This document shows positions 34,027 through 51,267 of a DNA stretch of 64,000 nt, piece by piece. The DNA comes from Rhizobium sp. Pop5. GTDB lineage: Bacteria; Pseudomonadota; Alphaproteobacteria; Rhizobiales; Rhizobiaceae. Where the stretch lies: assembly GCF_024721175.1 (NCBI RefSeq), contig NZ_CP099399.1, forward strand, positions 1,116,001-1,180,000, given 5' to 3'. Under the pieces are notes generated by a model, which saw only the letters and a list, made by a program, of their open reading frames with translations, was not told the DNA's origin and did no database searches. Within the stretch, counting starts at the first letter, position 1, and every line of letters begins with the position of its first letter. A program made the position numbers and the translations under genes.

Positions 34027-35208
34027 TCAGACTTCCCGCAGCTTTACACCAAACAGATCGTCATGCATGCGCTCGACCGCGATCCCCACTCCACCCATGA
34101 GAGCGGCCCGGCTGCCGAAACGGCTGATCTCGATACGCGGCGGGTAAGGTGTACAACGCGGCAGAAAGCGCCGGATCGCGTCTACAAGTTCTGATCTTGC
34201 GCCAATGCTGCCGCCGATGATCACCAGTTCAGGGTCGAGAGTGGCTCCGATGGCGGCAATGGCGACGGCCACCAGCCTCGCGGTCTCTTCGATCGCGGCC
34301 TCAGCACTCGTTTCTCCTGCATTGAATGCGGCAAAGAGATCGGCCACCGTGGATGCGTTCCGTCCGCCAAAGCCAATGTAGCGGCGGAGCATCGCGACGC
34401 TGCCAACCGCGCTCTCGAACGTTCCGAGAGTAAATCCGCCGGGGTCAAAAGCATCCCCCCCGATCGGAAGATAGGCGATCTCTCCGGCCGCACCGCGCGC
34501 GCCGCGCAATAGGGCTCCGTTGGCGATAATGCCCATGCCGACACCGGTTCCGAGGGCAATGAAGGCAAAATTGTCGGTTTCGACACCATGTCCCCGCCAT
34601 TTCTCCCCTTGCGCAGCGAGGTTGACGTCGTTTTCGACGATCACGGGTATACCCATTCTGTCGCTGAAAACTTGCCGCAGATCCATCGCGTCGACGCCGG
34701 GGATGTTCGGCGCGACGTTGATATGTCCGGTAGCTGGATCGAGCACGCCGGGACTGCCTAAAACGACGAGACGGAGCTTGTCAGCGGTCGTTCCGGCCGC
34801 AAGCGCGAGTTCGACGATAGCGTCGCTGAACTGATTGACGAGATGCGTGCCGCCGCGAGGGTCGGTGGATATTTTGGTTTCGGCAACCACATTTCCCAAC
34901 AGATCGCAGATGGCAGCAGCGATCTTGGTGCCCCCCAGATCGATGGAAACAGCCAGCCCCGCGCTGGCATTGATTTCGTAGGTGATCGCATTCCTGCCCG
35001 GGCGACCATCGGTCCGACCGACAGGTTTCAGCCATCCGTCATCCTCAAGGCCGCGCACGACATCGGAAATCGTCTGTTTCGACAAGCCGGTCAGCTTGGC
35101 GATATCGGCGCGGGAGATCGACCCGTTTGCCAGGACGGTTCTGATCACGGCATTGGTTGAAATCTTACGTGCGATGGGAGTCTGTGTGACGGGCGATGTC
35201 ATTGCCAT
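34027..35208 (-). CDS. ROK-family transcriptional repressor
   Basis: A NagC/XylR-type regulator of 393 residues. It has an N-terminal winged helix (STNAVIRTVLANGSISRADIAKLTGLSKQTISDVVRGLEDDGWL) followed by a ROK sugar-kinase-like domain with the ATPase-type loop VSIDLGGTKIAAAICDLLG. The segment that normally carries the ROK zinc ligands (GAAGEIAYLPIGGDAFDPGGF) lacks cysteine, so it belongs to the zinc-free clade. The ATG at 35208 is used, with a TTG at 35226 as alternative. It is divergent from the glycosidase and ABC genes, which it probably represses. Confidence 0.93.
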   Translation of the reverse strand: MAMTSPVTQTPIARKISTNAVIRTVLANGSISRADIAKLTGLSKQTISDVVRGLEDDGWLKPVGRTDGRPGRNAITYEINASAGLAVSIDLGGTKIAAAICDLLGNVVAETKISTDPRGGTHLVNQFSDAIVELALAAGTTADKLRLVVLGSPGVLDPATGHINVAPNIPGVDAMDLRQVFSDRMGIPVIVENDVNLAAQGEKWRGHGVETDNFAFIALGTGVGMGIIANGALLRGARGAAGEIAYLPIGGDAFDPGGFTLGTFESAVGSVAMLRRYIGFGGRNASTVADLFAAFNAGETSAEAAIEETARLVAVAIAAIGATLDPELVIIGGSIGARSELVDAIRRFLPRCTPYPPRIEISRFGSRAALMGGVGIAVERMHDDLFGVKLREV

Positions 35209-35222
35209 CCGGCTAGCTCGTT

Positions 35223-35252
35223 CCAATTAGTTCGGAGCGCATACTTAATTGG
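35223..35252. promoter_or_regulatory. Inverted repeat near the ROK start, candidate operator
   Basis: CCAATTA (35223-35229) and TAATTGG (35246-35252) are complementary around a 16-base spacer, immediately upstream of the regulator gene. The spacing suits a dimeric repressor acting on its own promoter. Confidence 0.45.
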
Positions 35253-35310
35253 GGCCATGCGGAGCCACAATTATCGCGACAATTTGGAATTCCATACACC
35301 GGGACTAACA

Positions 35311-35333
35311 ATTTGTCTATGTCCTTGACAAAT
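35311..35333. promoter_or_regulatory. Perfect inverted repeat over a -35 hexamer, candidate operator
   Basis: ATTTGTC and GACAAAT form a perfect 7-base inverted repeat with a 9-base spacer. The right arm overlaps TTGACA (35325-35330), which could be the -35 element of a promoter reading toward the glycosidase gene. A repressor bound here would block that promoter. Confidence 0.55.
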
Positions 35334-35539
35334 GGGAGGCCGTCTGTAGGCTGGGATAAACGTGCGATGCAATGCGCGATGGAAATAAAGAGGGTCGAGG
35401 AGAAGTATGCACCATACATATGCTCTGGTTGACTGCGTGCCCGCGAAGATCGCCCAAAGAGGAACTGGCCTGATCTCATCCAGTTGTTCTCTCCTTCGCG
35501 TCCTGTTGTCTCTTTGATTTGGCTGCCGGGGATTTACGC

Positions 35540-37297
35540 ATGATAAAGCCCGCGACCGATGGACAGCTTTCCGCTCAAGAGCCCGTCTTACTGCCTATCA
35601 TGGCGCCACGCCTGCAGGGGGACATCCATCCGGAAGGATATGCCGATCTTGCCTTGTGGGGGGCAGGCACTTTGGGACGTGTGAGATTTTCCCCGATCGG
35701 TGGCCCTTACACTTATGCCCCCAACCGGGTCGTTTCGAAGCATGGCGGGGTATTTGTCGCACAGTCGCTGCCCGTTATGTTGATCAGGGGAGCCGCACTC
35801 CAGGGCATCTATCCGGCGCGCCGTTGCGCATGGTGGCATGAGCCGGATGGCAAAGGCGCCAGGGCGAAGGCCACTCGGAGCCATCATCGACAGACTATTG
35901 AAATGGCATGGGGCATTCTCATCGTGGAAGCCTCGGGTTCGGATTTGCGGATTGCCGTCGGCGCCTCACGAGATGAGGCCGAGAAAGCTCTGAGCCTCAG
36001 CAGCGAAGCCATCTTTGCAGAAGCCGCTGAATATGTGGCGCGCTGCGATATGATGCCCGAGGCCGATCCACTGATGCGCAGCATGGTCAGTCAGGGTGTG
36101 CATGCCGCCCTTTCCAGCATAAGGCGCGACGAAAACGGCGCCTTTGCGGGCCTTGCTGCGGGGCAGGCCTACAGTGCTCCCGCGCGGACCTATTACCGCG
36201 ATGGTTACTGGACGATGCAGCCCCTTTTGACGCTGGCGCCGGAGGCGGTGCGCGACGAGATCCGGATTCTCGCCAAGGGGGTACAGCCGGACGGAGAGGC
36301 CCCCAGCGGCGTGATCTTGACGGGGCCGGCGCAATCGCAGGCCTGGCAGCACTTCGTAGCCGACAGCAAGGCCAATCCCAAAAATCACAAAAGGGCAGTT
36401 CCGGAATATCACAACCGTCCGCAGGACTGGTGGAGCGACCATTTTGACAGCCCGCTTTTCTTCATTCTTTTCCTGGACGAATATTTCAGTGCAACCAAAG
36501 ACTTGGCCGAGGTGGAGCGACACTGGCCTGTCGTGAAGGCGATCACCGACCGCTATCTTAGTCTGGCTGGTCCCGGCAGCGTTCTGCCGCTCAAACCGCG
36601 CAACGACCGGGATTGGGCCGACAATGTCTATCGTGAGGGCCTCGTCTCTTATGATCTGGGACTTTTTGTCGGCGCCATGGACGCGGTGGCGAGGCTGGGC
36701 AAGGAGCATGACCTGGCTCTTGCAGAACGCGCGCTGAACACCGCAAATCTGGCCCGCCAGGAAATCGAAGCCAAACTCTTTGTGCCGGCAACGGGAGGAT
36801 ATATCGATTACGGAACGCCCGGCGCTTTTGTCGAGGATCATCTGGTTCTCGACAGCCTGACCTTGTCGCGATTCGGCGCGATTTCGAAGCAGCGGGCCGT
36901 GGGCTTGTTGCAGGCTTTTGAAACTAAGCTGGAAACACGCAACAATCGACAGCAGCCCTATGGCAGTTGGGGTGTCATGTGCGCCTATCCGCCGTTCAAG
37001 CGGCAGAGCGATTTACGATCCAAGACGGCTTTTCCCTACCGCTACCATAATGGTTCGGACTGGCCATATTGGGATGGAGCCTATGCCGAAGAGCGCCTTC
37101 GCCACGGGCTTGGAGGCGCACGCTACGCGTTGACGCGCTGGTGGGAAATCTGCCTCGACAATGGCTGGATCGGCGCAGTGGAATATTTCTCGCCGCCTTA
37201 TGGGCGCGGCTCCCTGCTTCAAGGTTGGAGCGCCATGCCGGCGGCAACGGTTCTGAAATATGGGCTGGACGCTGCAAATGCGGAGCCAGTGTCATGA
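35540..37297 (+). CDS. Six-hairpin (alpha/alpha)6-barrel glycosidase-like protein
   Basis: 585 residues, no signal peptide, so a cytoplasmic enzyme. The central and C-terminal parts carry the pattern of six-hairpin glycosidases: RPQDWWSDHFDSPLFFILFLDEY, LPLKPRNDRDWADNVYREGLVSYDLGLFVGAM and FPYRYHNGSDWPYWDGAYAEERLRHGL, with acidic residues suited to acid/base catalysis. I cannot choose between GH families (debranching, trehalase-like or others). CCGGGGA before the ATG sets the start. It lies downstream of the candidate operators. Confidence 0.7.
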   Translation: MIKPATDGQLSAQEPVLLPIMAPRLQGDIHPEGYADLALWGAGTLGRVRFSPIGGPYTYAPNRVVSKHGGVFVAQSLPVMLIRGAALQGIYPARRCAWWHEPDGKGARAKATRSHHRQTIEMAWGILIVEASGSDLRIAVGASRDEAEKALSLSSEAIFAEAAEYVARCDMMPEADPLMRSMVSQGVHAALSSIRRDENGAFAGLAAGQAYSAPARTYYRDGYWTMQPLLTLAPEAVRDEIRILAKGVQPDGEAPSGVILTGPAQSQAWQHFVADSKANPKNHKRAVPEYHNRPQDWWSDHFDSPLFFILFLDEYFSATKDLAEVERHWPVVKAITDRYLSLAGPGSVLPLKPRNDRDWADNVYREGLVSYDLGLFVGAMDAVARLGKEHDLALAERALNTANLARQEIEAKLFVPATGGYIDYGTPGAFVEDHLVLDSLTLSRFGAISKQRAVGLLQAFETKLETRNNRQQPYGSWGVMCAYPPFKRQSDLRSKTAFPYRYHNGSDWPYWDGAYAEERLRHGLGGARYALTRWWEICLDNGWIGAVEYFSPPYGRGSLLQGWSAMPAATVLKYGLDAANAEPVS

Positions 37298-37317
37298 ACA
37301 TTACGGCGCCGTCGGCT

Positions 37318-37932
37318 CTAGCAAGATCCTTCATCGATCCGCATTGCAAAGGCCATGGCGCCATCCCGTTCGAATTGCGAAAAGCCGAGGTGGCGGTAGA
37401 ATCCCTTGGCGCCTTCGTTGTTCGGGTCGACACCGAGATGTACGGCGCCGACTCCGTGATTTCGAAGCGCCTGAAGCTCGGTGCTGATCATCCTGCGTCC
37501 CCAACCGCTTGCCTGAAGGCCGGGAAGGATGTTGATATGAAGATGCGCGGGATATTCGTCTTGAAGCCACGGCGTTCCGCTGCGGGGATTGTGAATTCGC
37601 TCTATCACGTCGGCGTCGCGCGCACAGACGGGTGCCAAGTCGGCGATTTGCCCACGGACGAACGGCCACCAGTTTGCAGCCAGGTCTTTGTCGAACCTAT
37701 TGGTATCCGGCGTGCCGACGACATAGCCGACCGTACGGCCGTCCTGGACCAGGACAAAGGCAAAGTCTCCGGCGAATTTGAGATAAGGCACCGACCAGAT
37801 GTAACCGGGCAGGTGCGGGTCGCTGTAAAGCGCGCTGGCATCCTTGCCGCCATTGGCGGTTTTGAGGCAGATTTCGAAAAGGGCTTCGCTGTCCGCGTCA
37901 GTCGCCGGGCGGATGAAGCAGTTGCTGTCCAT
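37318..37932 (-). CDS. GNAT acetyltransferase
   Basis: 204 residues beginning MDSNCFIRPATDADSEALFEICLKT, with AGGAGG about 9 bases upstream; a longer in-frame reading from 37992 is less likely. The acetyl-CoA-binding stretch lies around LQASGWGRRMISTELQALRNHG, followed by VHLGVDPNNEGAKGFYRHLGF. The segment with HLPGYIWSVPYLKF and HINILPGLQASGWG resembles the acetyltransferase-like half of O-GlcNAcase relatives. It sits on the opposite strand inside the sugar locus, 20 bases from the glycosidase 3' end. Confidence 0.85.
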   Translation of the reverse strand: MDSNCFIRPATDADSEALFEICLKTANGGKDASALYSDPHLPGYIWSVPYLKFAGDFAFVLVQDGRTVGYVVGTPDTNRFDKDLAANWWPFVRGQIADLAPVCARDADVIERIHNPRSGTPWLQDEYPAHLHINILPGLQASGWGRRMISTELQALRNHGVGAVHLGVDPNNEGAKGFYRHLGFSQFERDGAMAFAMRIDEGSC

Positions 37933-38109
37933 CACTTTGCCACCTCCTGCGTGGCGTTTTGTCATTTCAGGTTGCGAGGGAGGCTCATGCATTGACGATT
38001 ACCTCAGATTCGCCAGCCCGGCAAAGCTCTGGGGAAAGAAAACGTTCGGCCGCTGTTAAGCGCAAGGACCGAACGGAGAGTGGAGAATAAACCAAGTGAG
38101 GTGGAACAG

Positions 38110-39447
38110 ATGAATAGAAGCTTGAAGTCGATCAACATACTGTCAACACGGCAATTGAAAGCAGCCGTCGCGCTCGCCGGCGCGGCGCTTGTCAGCTTCA
38201 GCCTTTCAGCAGCGGCGCGCGCCGACGATCTGGCTGTCTGGGATGACCAGACCTATGAAGGTCAGAGCGCGGTTATCGAGCAACTGAACAAGGAGTTCGA
38301 AGCGGCCCATTCGGGTGTCACGATCAAACGCACCGCAAGAACCTTCGACGACATGAAATTGACGTTGAAACTTGCAGTTTCGGCAGGCGACGGCCCTGTG
38401 ATCACGAAGGTCAACCAGGGCGCCGGCGATATGGGCGCGATGGTCAAGGAAGGCCTGCTCCTGCCCGTCGACGACTACATCAAGAAATATGGCTGGGACA
38501 AGCGGCAGTCGGATTCCGTACTTGCTCGCGACCGCTGGGACGGACCGAAATTCGGAGTGGGTAAGACCTACGGCATATCGGGCCTCGCCGAAATCGTTGG
38601 CCTCTACTACAATAAGAAGATCCTTGATGATGCGGGCGTAGCGCTGCCGCAAACCTTCGAGGAGCTCCTGGCCGATCTCGACAAGCTGAAGGAAAAAGGT
38701 GTCGCGCCCTTCATGATGGGCTCGGCAAAGCAGCATCTGGCCCTGCATATGATCGGCGCCATCGATCAGGCCCATATCGATGCGAGCAATCGTGCCGAAC
38801 TTGACAATCTGATTTACGGCAAGGGCGGCTCCTGGAACACCAAGGGTAATATCGAATCCGCCAAACTTGTGCAGAAGTGGGCGCAGGGCGGCTATTTCTA
38901 TCCCGGTTTCGAGGGCATCTCGGGTGACGACGCCGTCCAGCTTTTCATATCAGGGCAGGGCGCCTTCCTGATCTCCGGGACCTGGTATTTCGGTGATATG
39001 CAGCACAATCCCGATATCGGCTTCATGGCCATTCCCGCCCCGAAGGGTATTTCCAAGCCCCTGAGTGTCGGAGGCGTGGACCTTGCCTGGGCGATAACGA
39101 GCCTTGCCAAAGACAAGAAGACGCAGGATCTGGCCGGTGAATATATCGACTACATGGTTTCGGAAAAGGCTGCCGAAACCTGGGCCAATGCCAGCTATCT
39201 TCCGGCAACATCGCTTGCGGCGGACGCAAAGCCGAAGCTGACGCCACTTCTGAGCGCCGGCATCGATATGTGGAAGAAGCTCAACGCCAACGACGCGCTC
39301 GGCCACTACCCCGATTGGTCGAGCCCGACGATGCTGAAGACAATCGACGACAACACGCCGCTTCTCTTGTCGGGCAAGATCACGCCCGAAGCCTTTGTTG
39401 ACGCGATGGACAAGGATTATCAGGCGTACCTGAAGGGTCAGAAATAA
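38110..39447 (+). CDS. Sugar ABC transporter substrate-binding protein
   Basis: A 445-residue periplasmic binding protein of the CUT1 (family 1) type. The signal peptide runs to about residue 38 (AALVSFSLSAAARADD), and the mature protein has EQLNKEFEAAHSGVTIKRTARTFDD, GDGPVITKVNQGAGDMGAMVKEGLLLPVDDYIKKYGWD and the typical GLYYNKKILDDAGVALPQTFEELLADLDKLK. GAGGTGG lies before the ATG. The two permease genes follow after a repeat-containing gap. Substrate unknown, probably an oligosaccharide. Confidence 0.93.
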   Translation: MNRSLKSINILSTRQLKAAVALAGAALVSFSLSAAARADDLAVWDDQTYEGQSAVIEQLNKEFEAAHSGVTIKRTARTFDDMKLTLKLAVSAGDGPVITKVNQGAGDMGAMVKEGLLLPVDDYIKKYGWDKRQSDSVLARDRWDGPKFGVGKTYGISGLAEIVGLYYNKKILDDAGVALPQTFEELLADLDKLKEKGVAPFMMGSAKQHLALHMIGAIDQAHIDASNRAELDNLIYGKGGSWNTKGNIESAKLVQKWAQGGYFYPGFEGISGDDAVQLFISGQGAFLISGTWYFGDMQHNPDIGFMAIPAPKGISKPLSVGGVDLAWAITSLAKDKKTQDLAGEYIDYMVSEKAAETWANASYLPATSLAADAKPKLTPLLSAGIDMWKKLNANDALGHYPDWSSPTMLKTIDDNTPLLLSGKITPEAFVDAMDKDYQAYLKGQK

Positions 39448-39493
39448 ATGGCGCGGACGCAGGCCGCGTTCGTGGCCTGCGTCTCGTCGACCT

Positions 39494-39588
39494 TAGAGCA
39501 TGTCGCATAAAACTGTGCAGCGGTTTTGCGATAACGACATGCGTAAAAACAAAGACCTAAAGCTAAAGCGCGACGCGCTTTAGGTAAA
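39494..39588. repeat. Rhizobium-type intergenic repeat
   Basis: The sequence begins tagagcatgtcgcataaaac, continues through GCGGTTTTGCGATAACGACATGCGTAAAAACAAAG, and ends in CCTAAAGC...GCTTTAGG, a terminal inverted repeat. I recognise it as one of the abundant extragenic repeats of Rhizobium. It lies between the binding-protein gene and the permeases, where it could form an mRNA hairpin that lowers permease expression relative to the binding protein. Confidence 0.75.
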
Positions 39589-39652
39589 AATCAGCGCCGC
39601 GATCTCAGGCTTGCGGGGCAACGACGATAGCTTTGGCTTCATGGAGTACCGG

Positions 39653-40546
39653 ATGAAGCGCTCCCCACTTGATGGATCCGAACGTACCAGTTGGATCTAT
39701 TTATTGCCTGGATTGCTCATTTACACGGCTTTTGTCTTCGGGCCGATTGTCGCGGCTTTGGGATTGAGTCTGACTAGCTGGGACGGCCTCACTGTGCCCA
39801 AGTGGGTTGGCCTCGGCAATTACGTCGATCTCTTTTCCGATGATCGATTTTATATTGCCCTGCGCAATAACGCCGAGCTCATGATTTTCTATTGTGTCCT
39901 GCCGCTCGTGCTAGGCATAACCCTTGCTGCGTGCGTCTGGAATCTGAAGCAACGCGAACAGCTTGCCCTGCGTACGTTCCTGTTCCTGCCATATATCATG
40001 CCGACTGCCGTGTTGGGCATCATCTGGGCGTGGCTCTACAATCCCGCATTTGGCCCATTCAATCAGTTTCTGAGAGGGGTGGGTTTGGGCATGTTGGCAC
40101 TCCCATGGCTGGGAGATTTCGACTTCGTGCTTCCCGCAGTCGGCATCGTTGCGACCTGGTATTTCTTCGGCTTTTGCATGGTCATCTTCCTCACAGGAAT
40201 TCAGCGCATCGACCCATCGCTTTTCGACGCCGCCAAGGTCGACGGTGCTTCGGCGCGAAAGACCTTTTTCTGGATTACGCTGCCGCTTTTGATGCCTGAA
40301 ATCAGGGTGGTTTTGCTCCTGACGGTCATTGCGTCGATCAAGAGTTTCGACCTGATTTTCACGATGACGCGGGGCGGGCCTGCCAATGCGACGCTCGTGC
40401 CGAATATCTACATGTATCAGCTCGGCTTTGAGCTCAATCGGTTCGGAGCCGCAGCCGCCATCGCCATTGTCGGTGCGCTCCTCACATTCGCAATCAACTT
40501 TGCAATTCACCGGTTGGTGGGCTCGCAGAATAAAGGGCAGGCTTGA
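39653..40546 (+). CDS. Sugar ABC transporter permease (first)
   Basis: A 297-residue CUT1 inner-membrane permease with six helices and the EAA loop near the C-terminus (DPSLFDAAKVDGASARKTFFWITLPLLMPEIRVVLLL). Periplasmic-side text such as SLTSWDGLTVPKWVGLGNYVDLF is typical of the MalF/UgpA-like partner. GGAG 6 bases before the ATG at 39653 decides the start. Its stop overlaps the next gene as TGATG. Confidence 0.94.
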   Translation: MKRSPLDGSERTSWIYLLPGLLIYTAFVFGPIVAALGLSLTSWDGLTVPKWVGLGNYVDLFSDDRFYIALRNNAELMIFYCVLPLVLGITLAACVWNLKQREQLALRTFLFLPYIMPTAVLGIIWAWLYNPAFGPFNQFLRGVGLGMLALPWLGDFDFVLPAVGIVATWYFFGFCMVIFLTGIQRIDPSLFDAAKVDGASARKTFFWITLPLLMPEIRVVLLLTVIASIKSFDLIFTMTRGGPANATLVPNIYMYQLGFELNRFGAAAAIAIVGALLTFAINFAIHRLVGSQNKGQA

Positions 40547-41379
40547 TGAGCCGTTCGTCTAACATCCCCGCCGCTACGCTGTCATTTCGCCTGATCCTCT
40601 GGCTTCTTGCTTTCGTAACGATCACGCCGTTCCTGCTTCTGCTTCTCACCTCGATAAAGAGCAAGGCTGACGTCCTGAAGGGCGCGTTCGCATTGCCCGC
40701 ATATCCGCATTTCGAAAATTACCTGGACGCTTGGAACGCCGGTCATTTCAACATCTACTTCTGGAATTCGATTATCGTTGTCATCCCTGTGGTGGCAGCC
40801 AGCGTCTTTTTGGGCCTGCTCACGGGTTTTGCCTTTGCTTTCCTGTCATTTCCGCTCCGGCGCACGCTGTTCGGCATCCTGACAATCGGCATGATGGTGC
40901 CGGCGGAGGCCTTCATCATCCCCCTCTATTATGAAATGCGCTATCTTGGCTTGATCAATACCTATGCCGCCGTGATCGTGCCGCAGATCGCGATGTCGAT
41001 ACCATTCTCGACGATCTTCCTCGCCAGCGCGATGCAGCAATTGCCCGAAGAAATTCTCGAGGCGGCGGTCCTCGATGGCGCCGGGCGCTTTTATATCCTG
41101 CGCAAGATCGTCGTCCCGCTCATGGTGCCGGCAATGTCGACGCTGGCGCTGTTCCTGTTCATATGGACCTGGAACGAGTTTCTCATTCCCTTCATTCTGG
41201 TCAACGATGACGCCTATCGGACGCTGCCTCTCGGCATGCTGTTTTTCCAGGGGCGCTACACCGTCAACACGCCGGTTCTGACCGCCGGTGCGGTTATTGT
41301 CATTGCCCCGCTCATCCTGACCTATCTGGTCTTCCAGCGGCGGTTCATTGCCGGCTTGACGGCCGGAGCAACGAAATAG
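40546..41379 (+). CDS. Sugar ABC transporter permease (second)
   Basis: A 277-residue MalG-like permease with six helices. The EAA loop is EEILEAAVLDGAGRFYILRKIVVPLMVPAMSTLALFLFIWTWNEFLIPFILV (about residues 166-217). The ATG overlaps the preceding stop. No ATP-binding protein follows, so the pair must use an ATPase encoded elsewhere, as is known for several CUT1 systems with a shared MsmK/UgpC-type ATPase. Confidence 0.94.
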   Translation: MSRSSNIPAATLSFRLILWLLAFVTITPFLLLLLTSIKSKADVLKGAFALPAYPHFENYLDAWNAGHFNIYFWNSIIVVIPVVAASVFLGLLTGFAFAFLSFPLRRTLFGILTIGMMVPAEAFIIPLYYEMRYLGLINTYAAVIVPQIAMSIPFSTIFLASAMQQLPEEILEAAVLDGAGRFYILRKIVVPLMVPAMSTLALFLFIWTWNEFLIPFILVNDDAYRTLPLGMLFFQGRYTVNTPVLTAGAVIVIAPLILTYLVFQRRFIAGLTAGATK

Positions 41380-41443: not shown

Positions 41444-42688
41444 TTACGCCGTTGCCTTGGGATTTCGTCCGCGCTTGTGGCGTGCTTCAAGTGCCACACA
41501 GCCCCAGACCGTGCCGAGCAGCAGATAGACATGGCGCCAGTGGTCGATGTCGATGACGTTGCCGATCGACGCGTGACCGAGAACGGAGATCCAGGCGATC
41601 ATCAGGAAGGGTTGCCAGGGCCGATCGAGCAGCAGGTTGCGGAAGCCGATGGTGAGCGTCCAGAGCAGCATGCCGACATAGCTGACGAAGCCGAGCCAGC
41701 CGTAGGTGGTCAGCGATTTCAGCCAGATATTGTGCTCGTCCTCGGGAAACATCGTGCCGAACACCAGCGGCCCGATGCCGAGCGGGCGCTCCATCATCAT
41801 GGTGAAGCCGATCCGGTGGCGCTCGAAGCGGCCGAGATGCTCGCCGTCATACTGCTGCACCAGCTGGGCGCGCGCTGAAAACAGCTGGCTGACCTTCGGG
41901 ATCTGCAGGGCCACCAAGAGCGAGGCGACCAGCATGATGATCGCGGCCAGCGAGAGGACCAGGACCCGCAAGCGGAAGGCGCCGCTGCGTTCTTTCAGCA
42001 GCATGATAAAGATCAGCAGCACGACGCCGAGGGCAAAAAGCCCCCAGGCCGCGCGGGAAAAGGAGAGGAAAATGCCGAGCGCGAGCACGAGCAAGGCCAA
42101 GGCCTTCATCGGCGCTTTCTTCAGGTCGCCAGCGAGAATGCCATGGACGAGATAGAGCGAGGGCGGCACCAGAAAGGGGCCGAAGACGTTCGGATCCTGA
42201 AAGGCGCCCTTGGCGCGATCATAGAGCGTGAAGACTTCCGAGCCCGGAAAGGCGTGGAAATAGCCGAGCACACCAAGCGTTGAAGTGACGACAGCGGCAA
42301 AGGTCCAGGCGTTGAACATCAGCGGCAGCCGCTTGTGGCTATCCTCGATGATTGCCGCGTAGAAGACCGCCGTCAGCGCCAGGAAGGTCGAAACGGCGAT
42401 ATACATCGGCCCTGTCGCCAGATCCTTCATCTGCGTCAGCGACAGCATGCCGCCGATATTGAAGGTGAGAAGCAGAGCAAGCAGTGGCGCCACGCCGCGC
42501 GAGATCTTGAGGCCGAGAATGAACCATAGGCCGACCAGTCCTGCCATCCACAGCTCATAGGGCGCCGGCTCATCGATCACGAAGCCGGACAGAAAGACGC
42601 CGAAGGCGACGAAGGCCGAGCCGATCAGGCGCAGCGTCATCCGCTGCGGCTGGGCGACACGGGGATATGTCGCCTCGATCGCGCTCAA
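41444..42688 (-). CDS. O-antigen ligase/Wzy-type polysaccharide polymerase
   Basis: 414 residues with about ten membrane helices and a long periplasmic loop (ARAQLVQQYDGEHLGRFERHRIGFTMMMERPLGIGPLVFGTMFPEDEHNIWLKSL) that is the Wzy_C/ligase signature with its paired Arg and His. It would join polysaccharide repeat units or ligate them to an acceptor. The TTG at 42688 overlaps the stop of the upstream transferase gene; an ATG at 42640 is the other candidate. It is the last gene of the minus-strand polysaccharide operon. Confidence 0.88.
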   Translation of the reverse strand: MSAIEATYPRVAQPQRMTLRLIGSAFVAFGVFLSGFVIDEPAPYELWMAGLVGLWFILGLKISRGVAPLLALLLTFNIGGMLSLTQMKDLATGPMYIAVSTFLALTAVFYAAIIEDSHKRLPLMFNAWTFAAVVTSTLGVLGYFHAFPGSEVFTLYDRAKGAFQDPNVFGPFLVPPSLYLVHGILAGDLKKAPMKALALLVLALGIFLSFSRAAWGLFALGVVLLIFIMLLKERSGAFRLRVLVLSLAAIIMLVASLLVALQIPKVSQLFSARAQLVQQYDGEHLGRFERHRIGFTMMMERPLGIGPLVFGTMFPEDEHNIWLKSLTTYGWLGFVSYVGMLLWTLTIGFRNLLLDRPWQPFLMIAWISVLGHASIGNVIDIDHWRHVYLLLGTVWGCVALEARHKRGRNPKATA

Positions 42689-44247
42689 TAGGCGTTTTCC
42701 GTGTTGAGCAGCCGGACGGGCGTCAGGAACAGGATCTTGAGGTCGAACCACAGCGACCAGTTTTCGATGTAATAGAGGTCGTAGGCCGTGCGGAACTTGA
42801 TCTTCTCGTCATTGTCGACCTCGCCGCGCCAGCCGTTGATCTGCGCCCAGCCGGTGACGCCGGGCTTGACGCGGTGGCGGGCGAAATAACCCTCGACGAC
42901 ATCGCCGAAGGCGCGGTCGCGGGCCTGGGCGAGAACGGCATGCGGACGCGGGCCGACGAGCGAGAGATCGCCCCTCAGCACGTTGAAAAGCTGCGGCAGC
43001 TCGTCGATCGAGGTCTTGCGGATGAAGCGGCCGACACGGGTGACGCGCGGATCACCCTTGGTGACCGCGGCCTTGCCTGTGGGGTCGCTCATGTTGGTGT
43101 ACATCGAGCGGAACTTGAAGACGTTGATGATTTCGTTGTTGAAGCCGTGGCGCTTCTGCATGAAGAAGACAGGGCCTTCCGAGGTCGCCTTGATGGCAAT
43201 CGCGGTCACGAGCATCAGCGGCCAGAGCAGCGCAAGAGCGACGATCGTGAAGAAGATGTCGAAACCGCGCTTGGCGACGGAATCCCAGTCGCGGATCGGC
43301 TTCTTGAAGATGTCGAGCATCGGCACGGAGCCGACATGAGAATAGGCGCGCGGCCGGAACCGCAGCCTATTGGCATGCGCGGCAAGGCGGATATCGACCG
43401 GCAGAACCCAGAGCTTCTTCAGGAGATCGAAGATACGGGCCTCGGCCGAAAGCGGCAACGCGATGATCAGCATGTCGATGCGCGTCAGCCGCACGAATTC
43501 GACGAGTTCCGCCACGGTACCGAGCTTCGGATAACCGGCGACCATGATCGGCGAGCGCTTCTCGCCGCGGTCGTCGAAGATACCGCAGACGCGGATGTCG
43601 TTGTCTGCCTGCTGTTCGAGCATTCGGATCAGGTCTTTGGCCGGCTCGCCACCGCCGACGATAACGGCGCGCCGCTCCATGATGCCGTTGCGCGCCCAGT
43701 TGCGGATGCCATAGGCGACGAGGAAGCGCTCGGCCGCAAGGAATAGCGCACCTGCAGTGAACCAAGGGATATAGGCATCGAACATCGCCCAGGTCGTTCC
43801 GCGGACCAGCGCGAACAGGCCGGCTGTCAGGAGAAGCGCGATCGTCCAGGAGCCGAGGATGCGCGGCATTAGCCGGAGCTTGGCCCGAAGCGCAGGGATA
43901 GTGTAGGTATCGGCAAGCTGCAGGCCGATGACGGTCAGGGCCGAGGCGATCGCCGCCATGCCCGCCCGCGCCAACAGGGAATCGCTGCCGTCGCCGGACC
44001 AGAAAGTGTGAGCGATCAGGGCGATGGCGAAGAGTGCCAGGAATTCCAGTAGCCGCAGCTGCCCGATGATGATCGCGGGCGAATAGGGTCCGTCGCGGAA
44101 TTGTTCGGCGATCTGCCGGGCATAGGGATTGATCTCTGTCGGCTCGGAAGGTTTTTCCTGAGCCGCGTCGCCGCGCACTTCGATGTCGGAAACCTGCTTG
44201 CGCAGTGCTTCCACGTCGAATTGATCGCTTTTTTCCAGCTTGTTCAT
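42685..44247 (-). CDS. Undecaprenyl-phosphate glycosyl-1-phosphate transferase (initiating)
   Basis: A 520-residue PHPT enzyme that starts polysaccharide synthesis by attaching the first sugar phosphate to undecaprenyl phosphate. There are four or five N-terminal helices (about residues 60-190), then a CoA-binding-like domain (RRAVIVGGGEPAKDLIRMLEQQ), then the C-terminal transferase (about 330-520) with KRGFDIFFTIVALALLWPLML, FKFRSM and SIDELPQLFNVLRGDLSLVGPRPHA. It is followed by the polymerase gene with overlapping stop and start, and preceded by the GT4 gene. Confidence 0.93.
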   Translation of the reverse strand: MNKLEKSDQFDVEALRKQVSDIEVRGDAAQEKPSEPTEINPYARQIAEQFRDGPYSPAIIIGQLRLLEFLALFAIALIAHTFWSGDGSDSLLARAGMAAIASALTVIGLQLADTYTIPALRAKLRLMPRILGSWTIALLLTAGLFALVRGTTWAMFDAYIPWFTAGALFLAAERFLVAYGIRNWARNGIMERRAVIVGGGEPAKDLIRMLEQQADNDIRVCGIFDDRGEKRSPIMVAGYPKLGTVAELVEFVRLTRIDMLIIALPLSAEARIFDLLKKLWVLPVDIRLAAHANRLRFRPRAYSHVGSVPMLDIFKKPIRDWDSVAKRGFDIFFTIVALALLWPLMLVTAIAIKATSEGPVFFMQKRHGFNNEIINVFKFRSMYTNMSDPTGKAAVTKGDPRVTRVGRFIRKTSIDELPQLFNVLRGDLSLVGPRPHAVLAQARDRAFGDVVEGYFARHRVKPGVTGWAQINGWRGEVDNDEKIKFRTAYDLYYIENWSLWFDLKILFLTPVRLLNTENAY

Positions 44248-44302
44248 GGGGTTTTATCGCTCGTTGTCACAAGCGAAATAACAGGAAGCCCCTAAGAAAC
44301 AT

Positions 44303-45472
44303 TTACGAGGCGATGGGCATTACTTGGCCGGCAGCGGGATTGACCAGCTCATAATACAATTTCAGGACATCGCGCGCCATGACGCTTGAGGAAAACACGG
44401 CCTTTATCGCTTCGGGCGGCGGCATCGTCTTGGCGTGCCAGCCGGGCGTGCTCAACGATTCCGCCATGACGCGGGCGAGATCGTCGGAATTGCCGGGCTC
44501 CACAAGTGCGGCACTATCCTTGCCGAGCACCTCGGGGATGCCGCCGACGCGGCTGGCGATGATCGTCTTGCCGGCGCCGAGCCCTTCGAGCACGATATAG
44601 GGCATGGCTTCGGCGCGCGAGGGAACGACCAGATTTTGCGCCATGGCGAAGGCTTCGTGGATGCGCATCGCCGGCAGCATGCCGATGCGCTTGCCGAGTC
44701 CGCGCTCGACCATCATCTCGCGGTAGCGATCGCGGTCGGGGCCGTCGCCGATCATCAGGGCCGACAGCGGCCTGCCGAGCAGCCGCTCGGTCTTGGCGAA
44801 GGCATCGATAAACAGATCGGGACCCTTAAGGTCCCGCAGCATTCCGACATAGATGAAATGCACGGCATCCGACCGGGTGTAGACTGGCGCGAATTCACGC
44901 TCGCCGATGCCGTTATAGATCAGTCTGGTCTTCGTCCGTGGCCGGCCGACCTTGCGCGAATAGGTGTCGCGCTCGTATTCGCAGATGAAGACCAGCGCAT
45001 CGGTGAAATATTCCTGCAGGCGCTCCATCCTGAGGACGAACTGTCCACCGAGCGACGAGCGCGAATAGTGCAGGCTTCCGCCATGCGCGGTATAGAGGCG
45101 GGCTACGCGATACCTGTTCACCCGCAACGCTGAGCCGGCAAGTCGCGCGAGCACGCCGCCTTTGGCGCCGTGTCCGTGCAGCACATCCGGCCGCAAACTT
45201 TTGATTTTCTTGTATGTATCCCACATCGTCGCAATGTCGGACGGGCTGATCGAGCGCCGGATCGGGACGCGTGTCAGGCCGAGCGAGAGGAAGGGACGAA
45301 TGTCGTCGAACAGGCGGTCCTCATATTCGCCGCCGGTCGAACTGTCGCAGAGAATGCCGATCTCATGACCGGCCTTGCTGTGCTCCTCGACGAGATCGCG
45401 GACATGACGGAAGATCCCGCCGACCGGCGACCTGAAGCAATGGAGGATGCGGAGCGGCCTCTGTTCTGCCAT
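44303..45472 (-). CDS. GT4 glycosyltransferase
   Basis: A 389-residue GT-B fold retaining glycosyltransferase. The N-terminal half has ILHCFRSPVGGIFRHVRDLVEEHSKAGHEIGI and LHGHGAKGGVLARLAG. The C-terminal half has HFIYVGMLRDLKGPDLFIDAF and the donor-binding EX7E region near VVPSRAEAMPYIVLEGLGAGKTIIASRVGGIPE. It adds a sugar to the lipid-linked intermediate. It starts 3 bases after the OPX gene stop and is the only glycosyltransferase of the cluster besides the initiating enzyme. Confidence 0.93.
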   Translation of the reverse strand: MAEQRPLRILHCFRSPVGGIFRHVRDLVEEHSKAGHEIGILCDSSTGGEYEDRLFDDIRPFLSLGLTRVPIRRSISPSDIATMWDTYKKIKSLRPDVLHGHGAKGGVLARLAGSALRVNRYRVARLYTAHGGSLHYSRSSLGGQFVLRMERLQEYFTDALVFICEYERDTYSRKVGRPRTKTRLIYNGIGEREFAPVYTRSDAVHFIYVGMLRDLKGPDLFIDAFAKTERLLGRPLSALMIGDGPDRDRYREMMVERGLGKRIGMLPAMRIHEAFAMAQNLVVPSRAEAMPYIVLEGLGAGKTIIASRVGGIPEVLGKDSAALVEPGNSDDLARVMAESLSTPGWHAKTMPPPEAIKAVFSSSVMARDVLKLYYELVNPAAGQVMPIAS

Positions 45473-45475
45473 CGC

Positions 45476-46051
45476 TCAGAAAAGCCGTTCGCGAACGTAG
45501 ATCGTATCGCCTGCGATGATCGGTCCAGATATGTTGATACGGCCGGTCAGCACCTGGCCATTGATCTTGCGGGTGACGTCGACCATGCTCTGGTTGGCGC
45601 GGCTGGTGAAGCCGCCGGCAATGGCGATGGCGTTCTGCACCGTCATGCCGGGAACATAGGCATACTGGCCTGGCTGGCCGACTTCGCCCATGAGGAAGAT
45701 CGAACGGTAGCGATCGACGTCGATGGTGACGTCCGGATCGCGAAGATAGCCCTGTTGCAATTTCTGGGCGATCTGCCCCGAAAGTTGCTGCAGGGTTCGG
45801 CCGCGGGCAGGGACCTGTCCGATGAGGGGAAACGCGATATAGCCGGCCTGATCCACCGTATAGGTGTTCGTCAGGCTCTGCTGGTCGAACACGGTGATGC
45901 GCAGCCGATCGCCGCTGTCGAGCGTATAGGGCTGGATGGTCGCCTCGTTGAAAGCCTTTGGAGCCGGCTTGTACGTCGTACAGCCGCCCAATGCTGCCGT
46001 CATGGCTGCAAGGCTCAGGGCCAAAAGGATATTGGGCCGGGCGAGGGGCAT
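45476..46051 (-). CDS. Polysaccharide export lipoprotein (OPX/Wza family)
   Basis: A 191-residue outer-membrane lipoprotein with the lipobox LGGC (lipidated Cys near residue 24), followed by the Poly_export motif (YTLDSGDRLRITVFDQQSLTNTYTVDQAGYIAFPLIGQVPARGRTLQQL) and a SLBB segment (FLMGEVGQPGQYAYVPGMTVQNAIAIAGGFTSRANQ). It is short compared with E. coli Wza, like the rhizobial ExoF/UppC type, so the barrel-forming C-terminus is absent. It is the first gene of the minus-strand operon, divergent from the PCP gene. Confidence 0.93.
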   Translation of the reverse strand: MPLARPNILLALSLAAMTAALGGCTTYKPAPKAFNEATIQPYTLDSGDRLRITVFDQQSLTNTYTVDQAGYIAFPLIGQVPARGRTLQQLSGQIAQKLQQGYLRDPDVTIDVDRYRSIFLMGEVGQPGQYAYVPGMTVQNAIAIAGGFTSRANQSMVDVTRKINGQVLTGRINISGPIIAGDTIYVRERLF

Positions 46052-46243
46052 CCGCTTTTGCTCACAGAAAAAAATGAACTCGGTGAAGCCGTTATCGATC
46101 CGTTAGGGTTAATGCCCGGTAAAGGGCGCAGCAATTTCCGGAGTTCCTTTCGAGATCGTCGCTCATTTCTAGGCGCAATACCATTAACCGTTGAGTTACC
46201 ATGGTCGTTTACGCTTGCGGCACCTTTGTTGTGGAGTAAGAGC

Positions 46244-48415
46244 ATGTCCGGCGTAGCTCGTGATCAGGATGTGGACATCGACCTTGGCCAGCTGGTCCGC
46301 GCGGTCTGGGCCCGCCGTTTCAGGATTCTGGCGATTACCCTCGTGGGGGCGGGCGTTGCCTTTGCCGGCGCCAAGATCATGTCGCCGCAATATCGCAGCG
46401 AAACGCGCATCCTCATCGAACCGCGCGCGCCGGCTTTCGCCAATACCCAGCAGATCAACGACGCCAGCGCCGCCCCGCTGATGGACGAACTGAATATTGC
46501 GAGCCAGGTGCAGCTGCTGCAGTCGGCCGATCTCCTCAAGAAGGTGATCAACGACCTGAAGCTCTATAACCTGCCGGAATTCGACGATGCCGCCAACGGC
46601 TCGGCCATGAGCAGCATCCTGGTTAAGCTGCACCTGAAGAAGAACCCGCTGGAAAACCCGCCCGAGGAGCGCATCATCGACGCCTTCATCGAGCGTCTGC
46701 AGGTCTATCAGGTACCGGGTTCGCGCGTCATCGGCATCAATTTCACCTCGAAAGACCCGAAACTCGCCGCCGCCATTCCGAATGCGATGGCGAATGTCTA
46801 TCTTTCGACCCAGAGCGGCGCCAAGCTCGACTCCAATTCCGAGGCGACGCGCTGGCTGGAGCCGGAGATCGAAAGCCTGCGCCAGAAGGTCAGCGACGCC
46901 GAAAAGAAGGTCGCCGAATACCGCACCACCCATGGGCTGCTGCAGACGAACGGCACGACCACCTTTCCCGCTCAGCAGTTGAACGATATTTCCGCCGAGC
47001 TGACCCGCGTGCGCGGCGACAAGGCCAATGCCGAGGCGAGGGCGCAGGCGGTGCGCAACGCGCTGTCTTCGGGCGAGGCGTCCGATACGCTGCCTGACAT
47101 CATGTCCTCCCAGGCGATCCAGCGGCTGAAGGCGACGGAATCGGGCCTGCAATCGCAGATTTCCGACCTGCAGACCAGCCTTCTCAACAATCATCCGCGG
47201 CTGAAAAGCCTGCGCGCCCAGCTCTCTGATATTCGCGGCCAGATCCGCCAGGAGACCCAGAAGATCCTAGCGAGCATCGAGAACGAGACCAAGGTTGCCG
47301 ATCTCAGAGCGAAGGAGCTCGAGCGCCAGAAGGACGCGGTTCAGGCCAACAGCGCCCGCGCCGGCGAAGACGAAGTCGGCCTCAACGCGCTGGAACGCGA
47401 GGCAAACGCCCAGCGCCAGCTGCTCGAAACCTATCTGGTGCGTTACCGCGAGGCCGCTTCCCGCGCCGACAGCAATTCAAGCCCCGCCGATGCCCGCATC
47501 GTTTCCAGGGCGATCGAGCCGGTCGATCCCTATTTCCCCAAGGTCGTGCCCATCGTCATCGTAGCGGCCGTCGCGACGCTGATCGTCAGCGCCATCGTCA
47601 TCATGCTGGCCGAGCTCTTCAGCGGCCGGGCGCTGCGCCCCGTCGATACTTCTCCGAGACGGGCCGAGGAGAACAGCGCGATCGAGGAAGAGGACGTGCG
47701 GGAAGCGGCTCCCGTCGTCGTCGCGACCGTCAGAAAGCCCGTTCAACCAAGCATGCTCGCTATTGTCGCGGACGAAGATGACGCCGTCGAGGAAGCGAAG
47801 GCTGCTGAGGAGGTGCCGGAGGACGACAATGAATTCTCGGTCGCTTCCGTTGCGGATTATCTCACAGGCAGCCGCGCGCCGCTTGCCATCGCCATATCTC
47901 CGACCGGTGACAATGGTTCGGCGGCGACGGTTTCGCTGACCCGCATGCTCGCCGATACCGGCCGTCGCGTCATCCTGATTGACATGACCGGTTCCGGATG
48001 CCCGACCGCACTGATGGCCGAAGACCGGTCCGCCCTTGGCGTAACCGATCTGCTTTGCGGCGAGGCCGCCTTTGGCGATACGATCCACAGCGATCGCCTG
48101 TCCGATGCCCATTTGATCCCGCAGGGCCAGAGCGATGTTCGCCGCGCCATGCGCGGCGTCGACAGGCTGTCGCTGCTGCTTGATGCGCTCGCCGCCGCCT
48201 ATGACCTGGTAGTGGTCGAATGCGGAGCTGCCGATGTCGCCGGCGTCTCACGGCTGACACGCAGCCGGAACGTCGAGATCATCCTCTCCCTGCCGGACGT
48301 CGAGGAGACGATTTTCGTGACGCTGATGACGGAGTTCCAGGCGGCGGGTTACGAGCGCGTCGTGCTGATGTCGAACGGCGACGGGACAGAGCAGGAACTC
48401 GGCCGGGCCGCCTGA
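46244..48415 (+). CDS. Polysaccharide co-polymerase with degenerate BY-kinase-like domain
   Basis: 723 residues. A Wzz domain (DIDLGQLVRAVWARRFRILAITLVG, first helix about 20-45) is followed by a long coiled periplasmic region and a second helix near 430-455 (VVPIVIVAAVATLIVSAIVIMLAELF). The cytoplasmic C-terminus (from about 545) has a BY-kinase-like fold, but the Walker A stretch reads ISPTGDNGSAATVSL instead of a P-loop with lysine, and Walker A' is VILIDMTGSG. No tyrosine-rich tail is seen. It would control chain length and export with the OPX protein. GGAG lies before the ATG. Confidence 0.9.
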   Translation: MSGVARDQDVDIDLGQLVRAVWARRFRILAITLVGAGVAFAGAKIMSPQYRSETRILIEPRAPAFANTQQINDASAAPLMDELNIASQVQLLQSADLLKKVINDLKLYNLPEFDDAANGSAMSSILVKLHLKKNPLENPPEERIIDAFIERLQVYQVPGSRVIGINFTSKDPKLAAAIPNAMANVYLSTQSGAKLDSNSEATRWLEPEIESLRQKVSDAEKKVAEYRTTHGLLQTNGTTTFPAQQLNDISAELTRVRGDKANAEARAQAVRNALSSGEASDTLPDIMSSQAIQRLKATESGLQSQISDLQTSLLNNHPRLKSLRAQLSDIRGQIRQETQKILASIENETKVADLRAKELERQKDAVQANSARAGEDEVGLNALEREANAQRQLLETYLVRYREAASRADSNSSPADARIVSRAIEPVDPYFPKVVPIVIVAAVATLIVSAIVIMLAELFSGRALRPVDTSPRRAEENSAIEEEDVREAAPVVVATVRKPVQPSMLAIVADEDDAVEEAKAAEEVPEDDNEFSVASVADYLTGSRAPLAIAISPTGDNGSAATVSLTRMLADTGRRVILIDMTGSGCPTALMAEDRSALGVTDLLCGEAAFGDTIHSDRLSDAHLIPQGQSDVRRAMRGVDRLSLLLDALAAAYDLVVVECGAADVAGVSRLTRSRNVEIILSLPDVEETIFVTLMTEFQAAGYERVVLMSNGDGTEQELGRAA

Positions 48416-48419
48416 ATGG

Positions 48420-49661
48420 TCAACCGATCCGGGCCCGGATGCCTTGGGCGAATTTATAGAGCTTCGGGAGCGCCTTGATATGCGCCTTGCTGCGGGTGAC
48501 GATCCGGTGAGCGGCGGCGCCGACGATGCCGAAAGGCGAAACCGGCAGCACCACGTCGTAATGCGCGGTCTCGACCGGCGCCCACGAGCGCTTGTAGGTC
48601 TGGTCGCCGAGGCCGAAATCGAACAGCGCGACTTCCTTGCCATGCAGTCCCGAGATGGTTTGCCAATAAAGGAACTCGCCTGGGCTCGTATCCGGCACGA
48701 GCGCCTCGTCGATCGCGCCGAACTGGCAGATGATGTGGTCGCCCTTGCGTGAAATCCCTGAAATCGCGGCGATGCGGCCCTGATTTTCGCCCTTGAGTCG
48801 GAGCACATGCATCTGCAGAGCGAAATACTGGTTGGCGTCATCCCGCTTGTCGAGGAGGCCGTGCAGAAAGGTCCGGGTCTCCTTGTCTGCGAAAACGTCG
48901 GGCAGGCCGAGGTTGGCGAAGCGGACACTCTTCAGGCGGAAGAACGTATCGAGCAGGTGGTGCTGTTCTTCCGACGTATCGGGGATGACATATTCGAAGC
49001 CGCCGGCTGCCTCGAGGCGCTTCGACTGAACACGGAATTTCTTGCGCCGGGTCTTGGCATTGAGCTGCTTCAGCGTTTCCTCGAAAGTGGAGTGGAACGG
49101 CAGCTGATAGGCATGATTCTGGTTTTGCACCATCGGCAGCCCCGTGAGCGGGGTCTGCCGCCCGCGCCATTCCAGGGGAATGTTCTGCAGCAGCAAGAGA
49201 TCGGCCCGACCCTTCAGCGCGTGCTGGAGTTGGCCGGCGAACTTTTCGGCGTCGATGCTGCCGCCGCTTTCTGCGAAATTCTCGGAAAACAGGCCGGTAT
49301 TGATGTTGCTGTGGTCGGCGGCGATGAACTTCGCGATGGAAAGCCCTCGGGACCTGACGATCTCGAGCGGCAGAATGAAAGCGGCCTGGCCGGCATAGGT
49401 GCCTTTGAGGATCGCAAGCGGCCGCTGAAAGGCGCTCACCCAGGCGGCGCACCAGTCGTAGCTTTGATGCAAGGATTGAAGGTTGTCGCGTTCCAACACC
49501 CGCCAGTCGTCCTCCAGCGGCTGCATGCTGTCGAAAACGCTGATGTCGATTTCGGCCATGGCGAGCTTCATGCTCAGCTGGCGCAGACGGGAAATGGCCG
49601 TCTCGGCCAGCGCTGCGCCGTCCGACGGCTGTACATGGACATCGAGCTTTTGCGTCTGCAC
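48420..49661 (-). CDS. Acetyltransf_6 (BioF2/FemAB-like) GNAT protein
   Basis: 413 residues of the GNAT group that includes the cellulose-associated BcsL/CelD. Typical stretches are LHQSYDWCAAWVSAF, QLPFHSTFEETLKQLNAKTRRKKFRVQSKRLEAAGG and YKRSWAPVETAHYDVVLP. A role in acetylating the polysaccharide or its precursor is inferred from the neighbours: it converges on the PCP gene with a gap of only 4 bases. The GTG at 49661 has GGAG 7 bases upstream; an in-frame GTG at 49730 is the alternative. Confidence 0.85.
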   Translation of the reverse strand: MQTQKLDVHVQPSDGAALAETAISRLRQLSMKLAMAEIDISVFDSMQPLEDDWRVLERDNLQSLHQSYDWCAAWVSAFQRPLAILKGTYAGQAAFILPLEIVRSRGLSIAKFIAADHSNINTGLFSENFAESGGSIDAEKFAGQLQHALKGRADLLLLQNIPLEWRGRQTPLTGLPMVQNQNHAYQLPFHSTFEETLKQLNAKTRRKKFRVQSKRLEAAGGFEYVIPDTSEEQHHLLDTFFRLKSVRFANLGLPDVFADKETRTFLHGLLDKRDDANQYFALQMHVLRLKGENQGRIAAISGISRKGDHIICQFGAIDEALVPDTSPGEFLYWQTISGLHGKEVALFDFGLGDQTYKRSWAPVETAHYDVVLPVSPFGIVGAAAHRIVTRSKAHIKALPKLYKFAQGIRARIG

Positions 49662-49837
49662 GGGTGGTCTCCGGTCAAGAATATTGAGCGGAAGGTAGGG
49701 GTGCCGGACGTATAATTGGTTTAACCGCACGCGATGGGCGAAGTTTTCCGCCGATCACGGTTATTCCACTATTAATGCATGCCGCGCGGAAGTGTGCTGC
49801 GCATGAATCAAGTTCAATGCGACGCGCTGTAATGGGC

Positions 49838-50047: not shown

Positions 50048-50163
50048 CGGTTATCTCTTGCAATAGAGGGGTCGAACCGGCGCGACGGCATGCCGCAAAG
50101 GTTCGGGGCTTGTTTTGCATGAGCCGGTGGGGCAAATCAACTGCCGGATCAGAAGGAGACATC

Positions 50164-51267
50164 ATGGCCGTCGCGAACCTCACCACGGAACAGGCGATCC
50201 TGAGTGAAATGCGCAAGCAGAACAGCGACCGCCGCGCCGTTCGCCTTTGGCTTGGTTTCGTCCTATTGGCGCTCTTCTGTCTGGTGCTCGTCGGCGGCGC
50301 CACACGGCTGACCAATTCCGGCCTGTCTATCACCGAGTGGAAGCCGATCCATGGCGTCATTCCGCCGCTGTCGGCCGCCGAATGGGAGGAGGAATTCCGC
50401 CTCTACCAGCGCATTCCCGAATTTCAGCAGTTGAACAGCTCCATGACTGTCGATGAGTTCAAGGGCATCTTCTGGTGGGAATGGGCGCATCGGCTGATCG
50501 CCCGCGGCATCGGCGTCATCTTCGCGCTGCCGCTTATTTATTTCTGGCTGACAGGGCGGATCGAGCGACGCCTGCGCTGGCCGCTCGCCGGCATTCTGGC
50601 GCTCGGCGGGCTGCAGGGCTTCATCGGCTGGTGGATGGTATCGTCAGGCCTTGCCGTCCGCACCGACGTCAGCCAGTACAGGCTCGCGACCCATCTCGTC
50701 ATGGCCTGCCTGATCTTTGCCAGCTGCATGTGGATCATGCGCGGTCTCTCCAGACATTCGGACGATCCGGCGCCGGCACGAAGCTCGCGCGGCTTTGCCG
50801 CCGCGATCGCCATTTTCGCGCTGTTTCAGATCTATCTCGGCGCTCTGGTGGCGGGGCTCGACGCCGGCTTTTCCTATAATACCTGGCCGCTGATGGATGG
50901 TGCCATCATCCCGTCGGATCTTTTGATCCAGCAGCCCTTCTGGATCAATGCCTTCGAAAACCCCAAAACCGTGCAGTTCATCCACCGTTTCGGCGCCTAT
51001 ACGCTCTTCGCGCTGACGCTGATCAACATGGTGATCTCGCTTCGCGCAGCACCTTGGACCACGCATGCGCGCCGCGCCGTCGTGCTCTTTTCGTTGGTGA
51101 CGGTGCAGGCGGCGATCGGCATCGCTACCTTGCTGATGCAAGTGCCGCTTCATTGGGGCCTGCTGCATCAGGCCGGCGCGCTTGTTGTTTTCGGTTTTGC
51201 GGTCGCCAACTGGCGCGGCTTTTACGGCGAATATCCGCGCGAGACGGTGATCGCCGAACGCGATTGA
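50164..51267 (+). CDS. ctaA: Haem A synthase
   Basis: Oxidises haem O to haem A for cytochrome oxidase, in the inner membrane. The 367 residues have eight helices. [21 protein letters not shown] follows the first helix, [15 protein letters not shown] and [19 protein letters not shown] segments carry haem-ligand histidines, and [16 protein letters not shown] is near the C-terminus. AAGGAGACATC before the ATG fixes the start. No other cytochrome oxidase genes are in the window. Confidence 0.96.

Follow-up and report, generated by a model that had tools for sequence, protein, structure and literature searches.

The stretch analysed here, 64,000 nucleotides of Rhizobium sp. Pop5 (contig NZ_CP099399.1, positions 1,116,001 to 1,180,000; hereafter the window), lies on contig C2 of a genome of 6.74 Mb in five contigs. 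It carries a six-gene polysaccharide set at 41444-49730, very probably the counterpart of the unipolar polysaccharide (UPP) genes uppABCDEF of Agrobacterium, whose polymer we propose to leave the cell through a composite of the export protein UppC and an unlinked outer-membrane barrel. Based on the open reading frame (ORF) list and on Pfam and NCBIfam profile searches, the set reads from right to left as a GNAT acyltransferase (minus strand), a polysaccharide co-polymerase (PCP, plus strand), and then an outer-membrane polysaccharide export (OPX) protein, a family 4 glycosyltransferase (GT4), an initiating phosphoglycosyl transferase (PHPT) and a Wzy_C protein, the last four all on the minus strand. 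UppC is described as a Wza-type protein and UppE as the initiating enzyme (PMC12727192), and the letters A, B, D and F, matched to roles by gene order, probably apply as given here:

41444-42751, minus strand: uppF, membrane protein of the Wzy_C family (O-antigen polymerase/ligase fold), predicted polymerase (PF04932, 8.2e-14; orthologue at the same place in A. tumefaciens L174, 63 %)
42685-44247, minus strand: uppE, PHPT of the WcaJ/HfsE class, predicted to form undecaprenyl-diphosphate-glucose (PF02397, 1.1e-65; PF13727; TIGR03023)
44303-45472, minus strand: uppD, GT4 glycosyltransferase (PF13439/PF00534; 91-97 % to R. pisi, R. vallis and R. leguminosarum)
45476-46051, minus strand: uppC, short OPX lipoprotein of 191 residues, 'class 3', without an outer-membrane segment (PF02563 and PF10531 only, Poly_export and SLBB)
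46052-46243, no strand: divergent uppC/uppB intergenic region, read from the sequence, presumably a shared promoter region
46244-48415, plus strand: uppB, PCP-2 (Wzz domain) carrying in the same chain a degenerate bacterial tyrosine (BY) kinase domain (PF02706, 8.7e-15; TIGR01005 is the best NCBIfam match, under its cut-off)
48420-49730, minus strand: uppA, acyltransferase of GNAT/FemAB type (PF13480, 2.4e-22; TIGR03019 weak, under its cut-off)
50110-51267, plus strand: ctaA, heme A synthase (PF02628), a conserved flanking gene, a marker for the upp locus but no part of it

An earlier sequence-only reading had described six polysaccharide genes with these roles, OPX and PCP genes that diverge, and four tightly packed genes, and the same ORFs, domains and packing were recovered here. 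The OPX and GT4 genes are separated by 3 bp, the GT4 and PHPT genes by 55 bp, and the convergent PCP and GNAT genes by 4 bp, while uppC (minus) and uppB (plus, with ATG 46244 as its likely start) diverge across about 190 bp. The PHPT and polymerase genes range from a 67-bp overlap to a 44-bp gap depending on the uppF start chosen, the candidates being GTG 42751, TTG 42688 (overlapping the PHPT stop) and ATG 42640, of which either of the latter two may be the true start. The same reading had stated that no Wzx flippase is present and that a single glycosyltransferase follows the initiating enzyme, which is true, cellulose synthase apart, of the 28 window proteins (part of the window ORFs) scanned with Pfam, where no flippase domain was found at E <= 0.001.

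To place the locus among its relatives, a scan with the PHPT of a relative was used, from which the best 80 of 590 loci were taken, a choice that by design favours close kin of the query (two of them, L153 and L167, are one genome), and the upp genes were sought at these loci by tblastn with the window proteins. All six genes are present at 67 of the 80 loci, A. tumefaciens included, and at all 67 in the order and orientation of the window, with ctaA also present at 63 of them. Since the six genes are kept in this manner, chance ORFs are ruled out. Among the 13 incomplete loci, nine lack uppA alone of the six, some of these on short contigs; two or three genes are missing at L208 and L231, which are short stretches, and uppA, uppD and uppF are all absent from L155 and L232. 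In a second set of 14 loci across the order, chosen among strong matches, all six genes are present at 10, one of which (L109) appears to be the same genome as L199 of the 80.

The sequence-only reading had likened the six roles to uppABCDEF of Agrobacterium and had proposed a gene-by-gene comparison, which on the Agrobacterium side gave one-to-one orthologues whose order and orientation match those of the window, next to ctaA and argC, in A. tumefaciens UMA610 (L174; the strain compared, not C58). Identities over the best segment are 48 % for UppA, 50 % for UppB, 72 % for UppC and 63 % each for UppD, UppE and UppF, such that UppA and UppB are less alike than the other four. The likeness to the glucomannan (gms) genes of R. 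leguminosarum (gmsA = RL1661), also drawn in that reading, is supported by two lines, with the GT4 alone compared on that side: a review (PMC4018554) gives uppABCDEF (Atu1235-1240) as orthologues of the glucomannan genes of R. leguminosarum, and the window GT4 (UppD) is 91-94 % identical to R. leguminosarum proteins (97 % to Rhizobium pisi, 96 % to R. vallis), the host being a near relative of these three species. With high confidence, the six genes can thus be assigned as the Rhizobium orthologue of the upp/gms core cluster, which as a locus is an already known kind of system. The constituents PHPT, GT4, OPX, PCP and Wzy also make up exopolysaccharide (EPS) and capsule clusters, and seven PHPT matches occur in this genome, so a pss/exo-like cluster for an acidic secreted polymer or capsule, merely resembling upp, might be considered. 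However, one-to-one orthology and synteny with A. tumefaciens upp, the recurrence of ctaA as a neighbour in many genomes of the order, and the fact that the two other OPX proteins found in this genome's own EPS regions are long and different from UppC make such an identity very improbable; it was rejected on synteny and is largely refuted.

The predicted product is a putatively polar adhesive polysaccharide of the Wzx/Wzy type, perhaps glucomannan or else another polymer. Agrobacterium UPP is thought likely to hold GlcNAc and GalNAc (PMC4018554), whereas the R. leguminosarum polymer is mostly mannose and glucose (PMC4046570), and a gmsA mutant is reported to show reduced attachment at pH 6.5 and 7.0 (PMC11406972). 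UppE scores 456.7 bits against TIGR03023, above the cut-off of 410.75 of this undecaprenyl-phosphate glucose phosphotransferase family, which fits glucomannan. The review cited above terms the cluster incomplete, Wzx and Wzy being unidentified at that time (PMC4018554), and UppF, which belongs to the Wzy_C family and has its orthologue in L174, is a natural candidate for the missing polymerase, polymerase or ligase activity both being possible.

Less expected than the locus itself is the form of its export protein, UppC. Wza chains match it over a part only, with the matches ending well short of their own ends, and in every one of 84 upp loci (83 distinct) UppC stops at the same residue and has no outer-membrane segment. 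Its tail reads ...GDT[IV]YVRER[LF]F at the six loci viewed (window 45479-45500), with nothing beyond it in any of the 84, and could perhaps serve as a docking site for a barrel. Within 0.53 Mb comprising the window and the genome's own EPS regions around PHPT genes, three OPX proteins were placed, of which UppC is the sole short one, the other two being long (445 and 504 residues between stop codons); a fourth UppC-like match was counted in the genome.

Because UppC appears unable to span the outer membrane, exit through a BBP2_2 barrel is proposed. The sole PF10082 (BBP2_2) match in the genome lies at C2:3351289-3352833 (L008 1075-2622), beside a galU-like gene and 2.2 Mb from the upp locus, and its predicted model contains 18 strands, predicted with high confidence and spanning residues 151-514. 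A PDB sequence search with the barrel alignment returned weak matches only, the best being a phosphoporin (E 0.036). Assignment of a function from the fold was also attempted; Foldseek and VIA-align returned 18-strand porins of a general kind together with AlgE, at tied Z scores, and no function is claimed on this ground.

The evidence for the pairing comes from gene distribution. Across 199 genomes of the order, with UppC counted at E < 1e-28, both proteins are found in 160, UppC only in 6, the barrel only in 3 and neither in 30, which means that the barrel is present in 160 of 166 genomes with UppC as compared to 3 of 33 without it (Fisher 2.7e-26, kinship ignored). With UppC counted at 1e-35, the corresponding numbers are 153, 1, 10 and 35; restricting the count to genomes with some OPX relative gives 160, 6, 1 and 18, and leaving out nine genomes below 2 Mb gives 160, 6, 3 and 21 (p 1.2e-19, kinship again ignored). 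Presence and absence of the two also shift together within family f25, mostly so in f20, and less cleanly in f26 and f42.

Outside the order the two genes are often found side by side. In a sample of 143 genomes of the class, BBP2_2 is present in 45, three of these from the order (the Pop5 genome included), and all 51 BBP2_2 matches of at least 100 bits outside the order, in 39 genomes, were examined. At 33 of these 51 places, an OPX gene of the UppC type lies within 1.5 kb of the BBP2_2 gene, 27 of the 33 being within 250 bp or overlapping (stop-to-stop frames) and 30 on the same strand. The chance expectation for such closeness is well under 1 %, a rough estimate from a handful of OPX genes per about 4 Mb and not a randomised control. 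An OPX gene is present somewhere in the fetched stretch at 37 places, all 37 proteins ending 0-2 residues from the end of the UppC profile, and is absent from it at the remaining 14. Within the order, an OPX gene lies within 1.5 kb at 1 of 30 barrel loci, that of G165 (L101 1994-19419), where the barrel gene adjoins uppC; hence the gene pair is usually split in this order. The G165 cluster is also fuller, with a flippase, PHPT, OafA-type acyltransferase, GNAT protein, GT2, OPX, BBP2_2 barrel and PCP together.

Several observations weigh against an exit through this barrel, namely that its gene is not next to the OPX gene here, with 2.2 Mb between them, that six genomes with UppC have no detected barrel, and that 14 of the 51 barrels at class level have no OPX gene in the fetched stretch. 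UppC might accordingly be a sufficient exit by itself, or use a barrel of another kind, the co-occurrence with BBP2_2 being a phylogenetic echo. However, no membrane-spanning end is seen in UppC, the barrel is present in 1 of 19 genomes with only weaker OPX relatives versus 160 of 166 with UppC, and outside the order BBP2_2 and UppC-type OPX genes lie close together at 33 of 51 places; this alternative is considered rather unlikely. It is instead probable, judging from gene distribution and the predicted fold, that the UPP/glucomannan adhesin of rhizobia exits by a split composite translocon of UppC and the unlinked 18-strand BBP2_2 barrel, whose genes are adjacent in many other Alphaproteobacteria and would have become separated in Rhizobiales. 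If true, BBP2_2 would be a general outer-membrane exit for UppC-type OPX proteins across the class.

Among the literature matches listed, none names PF10082 or BBP2_2, and Onyeziri 2022, which reportedly deals with dual UPPs, may already name the barrel. The available text of the founding translocon papers (PMC9603273, PMC9601211) contains no mention of PF10082, BBP2_2 or 'beta-barrel porin 2', and 'unipolar polysaccharide' together with 'beta-barrel' occurs, among the matches listed, only in PMC11340318. Two known systems resemble the proposed arrangement. The Myxococcus WzaX/S/B translocons likewise employ a short 'class 3' OPX protein that needs an 18-strand outer-membrane barrel (PMC9603273), but their OPX and porin genes are adjacent, whereas here they are unlinked and the pair is known from genes and a predicted model. 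In the promonan system of Sphingomonas (prmC/prmD), a gene for an outer-membrane barrel is numbered next to a Wza-type gene and deletion of either is listed as abolishing EPS (PMC11340318); it differs in being a linked, complete cluster for another polymer, and was likened by its description.

A second structural peculiarity of the locus resides in UppB, which is a PCP-2 with a fused BY pseudokinase. Its P-loop site reads SPTGDNGS, hence has no Walker A lysine, and there is no Tyr-rich tail. Of 82 proteins assembled for alignment (the window, five from the further set and others from the 80-locus set), the fragments L226 and L228 were dropped; GK[ST] is found in 0 of the remaining 80, the window included, S[PL]xGDx[GA][SA] fits 79, and the final 40 residues contain 0 to 2 tyrosines. 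Fused PCP-pseudokinases, Sinorhizobium SMc01795 included, are already described (PMC12004946). The holdfast hfs genes of Caulobacter crescentus share protein types with upp, namely OPX HfsD, PHPT HfsE, a PCP with pseudokinase HfsA/HfsB, WecG-type HfsJ and GNAT HfsK, as far as the available text of the holdfast papers describes them; they differ in forming a separate gene cluster and in having HfsA and HfsB as separate proteins versus the single fused chain of UppB.

All catalytic and transport steps of the pathway are ones that we infer from these assignments. Synthesis would begin with the transfer by UppE of a sugar phosphate, probably glucose, onto undecaprenyl phosphate, followed by lengthening of the chain by UppD together with a WecG-type enzyme coded elsewhere, possibly joined by further transferases, and by acylation of a precursor by UppA. 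A flippase coded elsewhere may then turn the precursor outwards for polymerisation by UppF, which UppB with its pseudokinase domain would steer while docking to the short lipoprotein ring of UppC, and the chain would most likely leave via the unlinked BBP2_2 18-strand barrel. UppA is of the same GNAT/FemAB type as HfsK, a c-di-GMP-binding holdfast protein (PMC5362036), a link made by domain type and the text of that paper and not by sequence alignment. The idea in the earlier reading of further transferases working from other places is compatible with what was found: HfsJ, the WecG-type enzyme of Caulobacter, is believed to attach the second sugar, next to undecaprenyl-diphosphate-glucose, R. 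leguminosarum wecG substitutes for hfsJ there (PMC11340318), and the Pop5 genome has two WecG genes outside the window, either of which may serve UPP, one at C2 381967-382941 near flagellar genes and the other on C5. On C5, a contig of 0.95 Mb, a further PHPT adjoins a WecG-type gene within a cluster that includes sugar aminotransferases and epimerases (L238 3212-15468). A query with the distant Wzx of G165 gave no match in the genome, an uninformative empty answer; no flippase family was searched there.

Physiologically, the locus would specify the first-contact adhesin of a legume symbiont, a role already known for its relatives. What is added is a testable answer to how a polar adhesin exits when its export protein seems to be without an outer-membrane segment, and the same OPX/barrel pairing may hold for other alphaproteobacterial polysaccharides.

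The sequence-only reading had also put weight on co-location with the cellulose operon as regards root binding. The operon is indeed present (bcsN-bcsA-bcsB-GH8-TPR at about 22.2-31.5 kb of the window), and BcsA and UppF are 18 kb apart here and 19 kb apart in another genome of this genus, as would suit a single functional root-binding island; this closeness, however, bears less weight than that reading gave it. Among 22 genomes of the family sample with a strong BcsA (at least 700 bits), 17 also have UppF, and the two lie within 20 kb in only these 2 of 17, both of this genus, while of the other 15, six have them separated by 264 kb to 2.5 Mb and nine have them on separate contigs (drafts may hide some closeness). 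Other genes, among them what looks like an ABC sugar transporter, also intervene. A joint island is thus improbable, and the co-location looks like a genus trait with no sign of a joint system. The intervening segment, 34027-41379, codes for a ROK-family regulator, a 592-residue protein (weak PF06202, below cut-off) and, judging from ORF translations, the apparent sugar ABC transporter, and looks like an oligosaccharide uptake operon.

Besides the split export pore, which is most worth following, the shrunken loci are of secondary interest. L150 (7447-8106) and L155 (about 8277-8849) are reduced upp loci that lack uppA, uppD and uppF; of UppB, the pseudokinase part alone is matched there (an ORF of 219 residues in L150), beside uppC and uppE, in an arrangement that recalls the split HfsA/HfsB. 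G212, chosen for its protelomerase domain as a stand-in for Agrobacterium, also has a reduced locus, with a UppE 74 % identical to that of the A. tumefaciens record, and was left out of the Agrobacterium comparison. The UppF proteins of G247 and Sinorhizobium sp. BG8 are identical.

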